Source: Nitrospira sp.
GTDB taxonomy: Bacteria; Nitrospirota; Nitrospiria; Nitrospirales; Nitrospiraceae
NCBI GenBank assembly: GCA_005116835.1
Contig: SWDM01000014.1
Coordinates: forward strand, 62,001 to 126,000
Direction: 5' to 3'
DNA length: 64,000 bases
Part shown: positions 2,378 to 3,674 of the stretch, one piece after another
Position numbering within the stretch: position 1 is the first letter of the stretch
Layout of the letters: each line of letters starts with the position of its first letter
Notes under the pieces: generated by a model
Database searches by the model: none
Seen by the model: only the letters and a program-made list of their open reading frames with translations
Told to the model about the DNA's origin: nothing
Translations under genes and position numbers: made by a program

Positions 2378-2659
2378 ATGACGAAGGCCCAAATCATCGA
2401 GCGCGTATCCGAGCAGGTCACAACCTTGACGAAGCGGCAGGCGGAAGTGGTTGTCAATACGATTTTTGATTGTGTGCGCGACTCATTGAAGAACGGCGAT
2501 AAGACGGAGATCCGAGGGTTCGGCAGTTTTCGCCTGCGGGCGCGTCGGATGAAAGAAGGGCGGAATCCCAAGACCGGTGCGACGGTGGCAGTCCCTGCCA
2601 AAAAGGTTCCATTTTTCAAGGCGGGCAAGGAATTGAAGGAACTCCTAAACCAGTCGTAA
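2378..2659 (+). CDS. HU/IHF family DNA-binding protein
   Basis: A 93-aa nucleoid protein that bends DNA as a dimer. It begins MTKAQIIERVSE, has the conserved FGSF turn, and carries the DNA-binding arm RMKEGRNPKTG with the intercalating proline region, followed by VPAKKVPFFKAGKEL. Arm and length fit IHF-beta as well as HU, and its place after rpsA favours an IHF-beta-like role; I leave the symbol open. A purine-rich AAAGGGGAG lies upstream of the ATG. The PCP_red gene begins 13 nt after the stop, so the two are probably co-transcribed. Confidence 0.92.
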   Translation: MTKAQIIERVSEQVTTLTKRQAEVVVNTIFDCVRDSLKNGDKTEIRGFGSFRLRARRMKEGRNPKTGATVAVPAKKVPFFKAGKELKELLNQS

Positions 2660-2672
2660 TAGGATGCTCATC

Positions 2673-3674
2673 ATGAATGCACCGGATTCCCATAATGCGG
2701 TCGGGATCGATCTTCGCTGGACGGACGAAGCCACCAAACGTCTAGAGCGGGCTCCGCTATTCTTGCGCGGTATGGTTCGTCGTTTGGCTGAAAAGAAGGC
2801 GCGGGAACTTGGCTATGCGGAGATTACGGGTGAGCTGCTCGAACAGTTCAAGAATCAAATGATGGGTGGGATGGGGGGCGAATCCGGCATGGCCGAAGCG
2901 GCAGAGCAGATGGCCCAGGGACGCCTTCCCTGGACTGCCTCCGCCAAGGAACGGCTGAATACCGTCCCGGAATTCATGCGCCATATGATCAAGCAGATTG
3001 CCGAAGAGATTGCCCGGGAGCGTGGTCATCTTGAGGTGAACATCGAACTCTTCGAAAAGGTGGAAGCGTTGGGGGACTTCCGCGAGGCATCGGGCCCTCC
3101 GATGGAGTGGAGCGAGGGGGCCTTGGCTATCATTCAGGAAAAGTTGAAACAGTCTCCGCCGATTGCCGTTGAGTTTGTCACCGATATGCTTAAGCGGGAC
3201 ACCGAAGATTTCGCGAGAGAAAATGGCGTGACGCGGATCGACGAGTCGACGTTGCTACAGTTGTGGGACTCGCCTCAGGAGCGAGTGGTCTGGACGGATG
3301 AGGCATGGAAGCGGCTGCAGACGTCGCCGGATTTTGTGCGTAGCGGAATCCGGAAGGCTGCTGAGCGCAGGGCGCGGAAGCTCGGGCTCCCGGAGATCGA
3401 TTCGGAGCATCTGACGACCTTTCGGAATCAAGCCATGATGAAGGCGGTCAAACGGATTCGGTCATTCGGGTACAAGGAACTGACATTCGAAGCGTTTGAT
3501 ACGGCGCTGGAGAAGACCAAACGGTTGCAAGGAAATGAGCAGGCAGGAAAACGTCTACAGGAAATTCGCGGACACTTTGCCGACCCTGACACTAAGAAGC
3601 CGGATGGTGGGACGTTGGGCGCCGACTTGATGGACCGCTTCCGCCAGTATCTGAAGGGGGAAGGAACCCTCTAG
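2673..3674 (+). CDS. Protein with four PCP_red-like repeats
   Basis: A 333-aa soluble protein made of repeats resembling the PCP_red domain known from the C-terminus of the ChlB/BchB subunit of dark protochlorophyllide reductase. Each repeat starts with W-(T/S)-x-x-A, then P-x-F-x-R and a helix with ARE-x-G and a closing I/V-(T/D/N). Repeats begin near residues 16, 87, 146 and 210; the third (EWSEGALAI) is degenerate. No chlorophyll genes are visible nearby, so a role in pigment synthesis is unlikely and the true function is unknown. I prefer the second ATG (2673), which has TAGGA 8-9 nt upstream, over the one at 2664. The stop codon lies at the edge of a palindromic repeat. Confidence 0.85.
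   Translation: MNAPDSHNAVGIDLRWTDEATKRLERAPLFLRGMVRRLAEKKARELGYAEITGELLEQFKNQMMGGMGGESGMAEAAEQMAQGRLPWTASAKERLNTVPEFMRHMIKQIAEEIARERGHLEVNIELFEKVEALGDFREASGPPMEWSEGALAIIQEKLKQSPPIAVEFVTDMLKRDTEDFARENGVTRIDESTLLQLWDSPQERVVWTDEAWKRLQTSPDFVRSGIRKAAERRARKLGLPEIDSEHLTTFRNQAMMKAVKRIRSFGYKELTFEAFDTALEKTKRLQGNEQAGKRLQEIRGHFADPDTKKPDGGTLGADLMDRFRQYLKGEGTL

Follow-up and report, generated by a model that had tools for sequence, protein, structure and literature searches.

The 64,000-nucleotide window, by which we mean the whole stretch of Nitrospira DNA analysed, encodes a protein made of four PCP_red repeats (PF08369), and gene fusion and gene clustering tie this array to a radical SAM protein of the AhbD family. 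The partnership between the two is well supported. Tentatively, and with slightly less than even confidence, we read the array as a non-catalytic partner, a carrier or a scaffold, to an additional radical SAM system that modifies heme. Throughout, class and phylum denote Nitrospiria and Nitrospirota, as in the lineage of the window genome.

Repeat structure of the protein

The features of the locus are as follows.

2378..2659, + strand: HU/IHF-family gene directly 5' of the array gene (PF00216, 106.3 bits)
2673..3674, + strand: four-repeat PCP_red protein, 333 aa from the ATG at 2673 (336 aa from the ATG at 2664)
2718..2852, + strand: PCP_red repeat 1 (59.4 bits)
2931..3059, + strand: PCP_red repeat 2 (52.2 bits)
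3135..3260, + strand: PCP_red repeat 3, which carries an insertion (26.9 bits, under the cut-off when alone)
3291..3419, + strand: PCP_red repeat 4, the best conserved of the repeats (50.7 bits)
3426..3527, + strand: conserved C-terminal extension of repeat 4 (about residues 255-288)

A preliminary description of this DNA had proposed that the whole protein consists of PF08369 repeats. This was confirmed by profile search, in which the 336 aa frame (window:2664-3671, +) matches the family over four stretches with 165.8 bits (E 2e-49, cut-off 32.5). The single-repeat scores come from a whole-genome PF08369 search with coordinates converted to the window; repeats 1, 2 and 4 each exceed the cut-off and repeat 3 does not. 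No other domain of the array protein exceeded its cut-off in the profile search, Clp_N being below its own at E 0.034. The start is more likely ATG 2673, as first described, than ATG 2664, since ortholog L036 lacks a start codon where the latter would lie.

The domain had also been called basic and helical. The basic character holds for repeats 1 and 4 (pI 9.8 and 10.2) and fails for repeats 2 and 3 (5.3 and 4.4) and for the protein as a whole (6.1); repeat 4 together with its extension has a pI of 10.3. The array contains no cysteine, which makes the proposed electron-transfer chemistry by the array alone unlikely, and we rejected this role. No heme-ligand motif is evident in the array, and H122 is almost invariant among 37 aligned orthologs. 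When the 37 tails that follow repeat 4 were scored as a degenerate half-repeat, they gave a mean of 5.2 bits (best 9.8), against a mean of -0.4 bits for the 680 of 740 shuffled tails that scored (best 5.8). The extension may thus be a degenerate fifth half-repeat, for which these scores are suggestive only.

Fold and comparison with DPOR

Among solved structures, ChlB/BchB and asr4154, a protein made of a lone PCP_red domain, come closest in sequence. Structure prediction, which had been put forward as a check on the domain assignment, gave a full-length model of middling quality (pLDDT 69.8, pTM 0.42) and a repeat 4 model (pLDDT 88.6) that takes the PCP_red fold, though its third helix is longer and a further helix is added. 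The latter matches 2kru (Z 8.4, rmsd 1.8, 55 aligned), 2l09, which is asr4154 (Z 8.1, rmsd 3.1, 62 aligned), and 2ynm_D (Z 6.3, rmsd 1.2, 50 aligned), and the fold of 2kru and 2l09 is the top structure match of the array models. AAA+ lid and histone-type folds matched with Z up to 7.2 and 7.8, values that common arrangements also reach for helical models; these matches are middling, and kinship with either would be tentative.

The array therefore has its domain profile and fold in common with the C-terminal PCP_red of DPOR subunit ChlB/BchB (2kru, 2ynm) and with asr4154 (2l09), but differs from ChlB/BchB in having four copies, no nitrogenase-like body and a radical SAM partner. A search of the genome with the BchB profile (TIGR01278) gave 10 matches, all confined to profile positions 441-511 and none over the cut-off, so that no nitrogenase-like body was found before a PCP_red domain and we rejected the idea that the array is a relic of DPOR. 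The earlier statement that bacteriochlorophyll genes are absent accordingly stands for the BchB body; of BchB, BchL and BchN, the search covered BchB.

Conservation and spread

PF08369 matches are present in all 32 same-genus genomes, the window genome counted, and in 163 of the 295 genomes of the phylum; of the 132 phylum genomes without a match, the first 20 listed all lie outside the class. Synechococcus elongatus alone among 14 control genomes matches at E 0.001, and eight of the 14 match at E 1, one of them over the cut-off. At E 1e-15 the array protein was recovered from 189 of 196 class genomes (162 of the 165 well-completed ones), with one match per genome except in G276 and G391. The 80 named relatives among the matches listed are titled Nitrospira, Nitrospirae, Nitrospirota or Nitrospiraceae, with two titled Nitrosospira.

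Mean column identity over the 37 aligned orthologs is 65%, with a peak at repeat 4 and what follows; across the 89 columns of repeat 4 plus extension, 35 sequences give 81%. In a quick tree of these short domains, read without support values, repeats R1 to R4 group by position, which suggests that the array is probably old and led us to reject a recent internal duplication.

PCP_red proteins of the window genome

The window array is one of five proteins with PCP_red in its genome, and the domain is linked by fusions to enzymes of heme type. In this Nitrospira-like genome 12 PCP_red domains reach E 1e-4 or better, distributed as follows.

Protein 1 of 5: the window array, four repeats
Protein 2 of 5: 252 aa, two PCP_red, after an Mrp/NUBPL NTPase; N-terminal CxxC pairs
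Protein 3 of 5: Usp-Usp-PCP-rubredoxin-like-PCP-PCP
Protein 4 of 5: radical SAM-SPASM-PCP_red (rSAM-PCP)
Protein 5 of 5: 164 aa, two PCP_red, near a cytochrome bd-like gene; N-terminal CxxC pairs

The CxxC pairs of the 252 aa and 164 aa proteins resemble zinc ribbons (hence ZnR below), and Pfam named no zinc-ribbon domain there. Upstream of the Usp-PCP and rSAM-PCP genes of this genome lie mpqE, which exceeds its cut-off, and a gene for a B12-binding radical SAM protein whose nearest model is slr0320 (439.5 bits, cut-off 775; L010:2340-4872). The mpqE gene had no match among L161-L180 and one weak match, in L187, among L181-L216, and a link to methyl-plastoquinone synthesis was dropped.

Fusions to radical SAM proteins

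The models that give the radical SAM partner its highest scores are NirJ2 (TIGR04055, 326.8 bits) and AhbD (TIGR04545, 308.7 bits), and both scores fall short of the cut-off of 500 bits. Enzyme labels for the radical SAM and Cld proteins in this work are best scores under NCBIfam cut-offs, and clade-mate genomes are not independent in the fusion and cluster counts.

To survey fusions we compared 78 PCP_red reading frames from 50 phylum genomes outside the class with reference domains by BLAST.

rSAM-PCP: 26 of 78 frames
PCP-Cld: 15 of 78, in 15 genomes of one family
Usp with one to three PCP: 14 of 78
ZnR-PCP: 7 of 78
PCP alone: 6 of 78 (four <80 aa, one of 153 aa, one of 47 aa at a contig end)
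four PCP: 3 of 78
two PCP: 3 of 78
rSAM with four PCP: 3 of 78
PCP-NIR_SIR: 1 of 78

The rSAM-four-PCP fusion, found in three genomes of one family, joins array and enzyme in a single chain. The window array aligns with its C-terminal half over residues 19-332, 17-331 and 5-330 at 41-43% identity (E 7e-75, 5e-78 and 2e-71), and in a tree with two of the three fusions the first unit falls beside the PCP_red of rSAM-PCP, while the remaining units join R2, R3 and R4. Both the partner and the fusion enzyme resemble AhbD and NirJ2 in scoring best with these two models; the partner differs from them in falling below the cut-offs, in bearing PCP_red and in coexisting with a better AhbD-like gene in five genomes.

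Fusions to Cld and NIR_SIR domains

At least six of the 196 class genomes (G182, G187, G284, G322, G323 and G324, one match each) place PCP_red before a HemQ-like Cld domain (L253:345-1292; also L255-L259), the pairing being seen by Pfam in one genome and by a home-made profile in all six. All six fusions keep a DEHI stretch, in which we take the proximal His of the Cld domain to lie. The G182 protein scores 194.1 bits with Pfam Chlor_dismutase (PF06778, cut-off 25) and 135.6 bits with the best NCBIfam model, HemQ NF042928, which is below its cut-off of 235; a stand-alone Cld gene of the window genome gives 132.7 bits with the HemQ model, also below 235. The listed stand-alone Cld genes are 60-67% identical to the G182 protein over the Cld domain, and those of the window genome match the fusion only from about residue 80, without PCP_red. 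Class relatives place PCP_red before a domain of the HemQ/ChdC and Cld family (PF06778); in the window genome the array lacks a Cld domain and the Cld genes lack PCP_red.

A diverged Cld domain is fused to PCP_red in 15 of the 50 genomes outside the class (L205:5036-6058, L209 and L217-L229). The proximal His is lost in 15 of 15 of these proteins, which may therefore bind no heme. In a tree with two proteins of each set, their PCP_red units fall together with the units from the class fusions, so both sets may derive from one fusion event. One non-class genome of the 50 places PCP_red before a NIR_SIR domain with ferredoxin-like 4Fe-4S stretches (L208:2224-3051). According to the portion of PMC7242693 available to us, AhbD and HemQ perform the same catalytic step in different organisms; PCP_red is then joined to relatives of both.

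Fusions and clusters hence link the domain genetically to tetrapyrrole-type enzymes, labelled by best scores below NCBIfam cut-offs. That the HemQ label falls below its cut-off slightly lowers our confidence in the favoured carrier or scaffold reading and slightly raises that in PCP_red as a pure protein-docking domain, with the array as a scaffold for PCP_red-bearing enzymes that makes no tetrapyrrole contact. We regard such pure docking as unlikely, albeit well worth weighing. It would suit an array without a catalytic part, the presence of Usp-rubredoxin-like and CxxC-pair proteins among the partners and the AAA+ lid-like helical folds among the middling structure matches, but leaves unaddressed why the fusion partners are repeatedly of tetrapyrrole type (BchB, AhbD/NirJ2-like, Cld and NIR_SIR). 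Of the preliminary interpretation as a whole, the repeat protein, the HU neighbour and the missing BchB body have stood, electron transfer by the array alone is unlikely, nucleic-acid binding is poorly supported, and protein binding survives in this docking alternative.

Gene neighbourhoods

The HU/IHF neighbour noted earlier is borne out by the PF00216 match directly upstream. Of 140 loci, 120 have an HU gene in this position and orientation, and these 120 belong to one order (some genomes enter this count twice); HU was not found in the remaining 20: L135, which meets a contig end, and the 19 loci L142-L160, L160 with only 229 upstream bases. L142 lacks HU although it belongs to the same order as the HU-bearing loci. 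The HU-PCP_red gene arrangement is therefore conserved within one order and missing from L142-L160; we do not hold HU to be part of the module, and consider it a weak candidate for a functional partner. Joint binding of nucleic acid by the array and HU could draw on the 120 adjacent loci and on the pI of repeat 4 with its extension, yet the 19 HU-less loci (again with the short L160) and the cofactor-type genes that are the conserved neighbours outside the HU-bearing order make it very improbable. The nucleic-acid role suggested at the outset thus finds little support, the neighbours elsewhere being radical SAM, Mrp, HDO-fold and PCP_red genes.

Outside the HU-bearing order, neighbours were clustered by BLAST and labelled by Pfam on one or two members each. 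The array gene follows Usp-PCP and rSAM-PCP in L170-L175, and a DUF4149/CopD-like gene adjoins it in five of these six loci (not seen in L173). In L161, L166, L168 and L176 it stands with Mrp, ZnR-2xPCP and an HDO-fold 'Haem_oxygenas_2' gene, and in L162-L165 with a CarboxypepD_reg-type gene. A second PCP_red gene lies in the analysed stretch of 13 of 18 such class loci and was not found in L162, L164, L165, L169 and L178, some of which are short contigs; L168 and L176 carry four PCP_red genes each within about 9 kb. Across 29 rSAM-PCP frames, a Usp gene lies within 1 kb in 23 and within 500 bases in 16. A 217-243 aa protein without a Pfam match (L201:5560-6288, L210:3173-3826) occurs less than 500 bases from rSAM-PCP in nine of the 29. 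Separately, in three genomes of one family (L183:5874-7884, L184 and L185) a lone ZnR-PCP_red gene adjoins a 530 aa gene, which in L183 encodes a B12-binding radical SAM protein.

bd-like cytochromes

Relatives of the L011 bd-like gene, which we do not equate with any named bd-like oxidase of the literature, were sought at E 1e-20 in 51 genomes (the 50 non-class genomes and the window genome). They occur in 25, and in 12 of these (G000, G038, G056, G080, G085, G139, G183, G200, G202, G228, G285 and G287) a PCP_red gene lies within 12 kb on the same contig; none was found within that distance in the other 13. Uniform placement would give 0.83 against the 12 seen (P about 3e-13, from hand-entered counts and too strong, as the genomes are kin). 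A weaker bd-like match (77.8 bits) beside Usp-PCP in L202 was left out of the 12. Among annotated loci, G080 is the one case in which the array itself lies near a bd-like gene, and there it is part of the rSAM fusion.

The L197 operon combines a bd-like gene and rSAM-PCP with a type II DMSO-reductase-like molybdopterin enzyme and its chaperone. This arrangement, the Mrp/NUBPL NTPase beside the CxxC-pair PCP_red protein and the fact that SPASM radical SAM enzymes often target peptides would fit a module that matures a metalloenzyme (a molybdopterin enzyme, an Fe-S protein or the bd-like complex) by protein modification or cluster delivery instead of heme chemistry. We consider this improbable, given that the top scores of the radical SAM partner are NirJ2 and AhbD and that the Cld fusions would be left unexplained.

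The housekeeping heme step

Cld-family matches were found in 13 of 31 genomes tested, the window genome having three. Five PCP_red genomes outside the class (G113, G285, G287, G202 and G228) have an AhbD-like gene (429-449 bits) in addition to rSAM-PCP (294-336 bits), and HemN is over its cut-off in all three PCP-Cld genomes tested. Housekeeping heme b synthesis by rSAM-PCP is thus unlikely where a HemQ-like or better AhbD-like gene is present.

In a search that covered the Cld family, HemN and AhbD-like genes, G147, G037 and G043 had no Cld-family match and no HemN over the cut-off, and their AhbD-like matches scored 338.7, 324.2 and 344.3 bits. Such genomes raise the alternative that, where neither Cld family nor HemN is found, rSAM-PCP and the array are themselves the coproheme-to-heme-b enzyme. 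It is very unlikely in our view: in the five genomes above a better-scoring AhbD-like gene exists apart from rSAM-PCP, HemQ-like genes occur in the window genome, and G253 lacked a Cld-family match, HemN over the cut-off and an AhbD-like match alike.

Proposed role

In the carrier or scaffold reading that we favour, the array, itself without an enzyme domain, would partner the AhbD/NirJ2-like radical SAM-SPASM protein ending in PCP_red. The putative module would comprise the Usp-rubredoxin-like-PCP_red protein, the CxxC-pair PCP_red protein, the Mrp NTPase, the HDO-fold enzyme, rSAM-PCP and the array. In parallel with the housekeeping route to heme, it would make or modify a cofactor of heme type, perhaps one used by the bd-like and c-type cytochromes of the phylum. 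The array would most likely hold or hand over a tetrapyrrole, or clamp PCP_red-bearing enzymes around one, with repeat 4 and its extension as the best candidate working surface. It counts against this reading that the Usp, rubredoxin-like and CxxC-pair partners are not linked to tetrapyrroles.

A broader proposal, which we rate as rather unlikely, is that PCP_red is a general tetrapyrrole-holding domain and that Nitrospirota have a second, undescribed heme pathway. In it, an AhbD-like radical SAM enzyme, working with the Usp-rubredoxin-like, CxxC-pair and four-repeat proteins that bear PCP_red, would supply modified heme to bd-like complexes of the kind proposed as the Nitrospira terminal oxidase; the window protein would carry the substrate and the extra domain of ChlB would do the same job in DPOR. 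From the accessible parts of the two papers, all Nitrospira genomes analysed at the time are without a heme-copper oxidase of the canonical type and may rely on a bd-like oxidase of a novel kind (PMC6606698), and a cbb3-type oxidase is present in N. marina and Ca. N. alkalitolerans (PMC8115632).

PF08369 is among the Pfam families used to pre-screen genomes for phototrophs, in the excerpt seen of PMC12815261, and in the sections seen of PMC12153308, a paper that also names Nitrospira, 'protochlorophyllide reductase' appears in the reference list only. Our results indicate that PF08369 alone is no mark of phototrophy. They also suggest what the extra domain of ChlB may do, in a form that can be tested, and they point to a class-wide module, fused to heme-type enzymes and near bd-like operons in deeper lineages, as a place to seek unusual cofactor chemistry.
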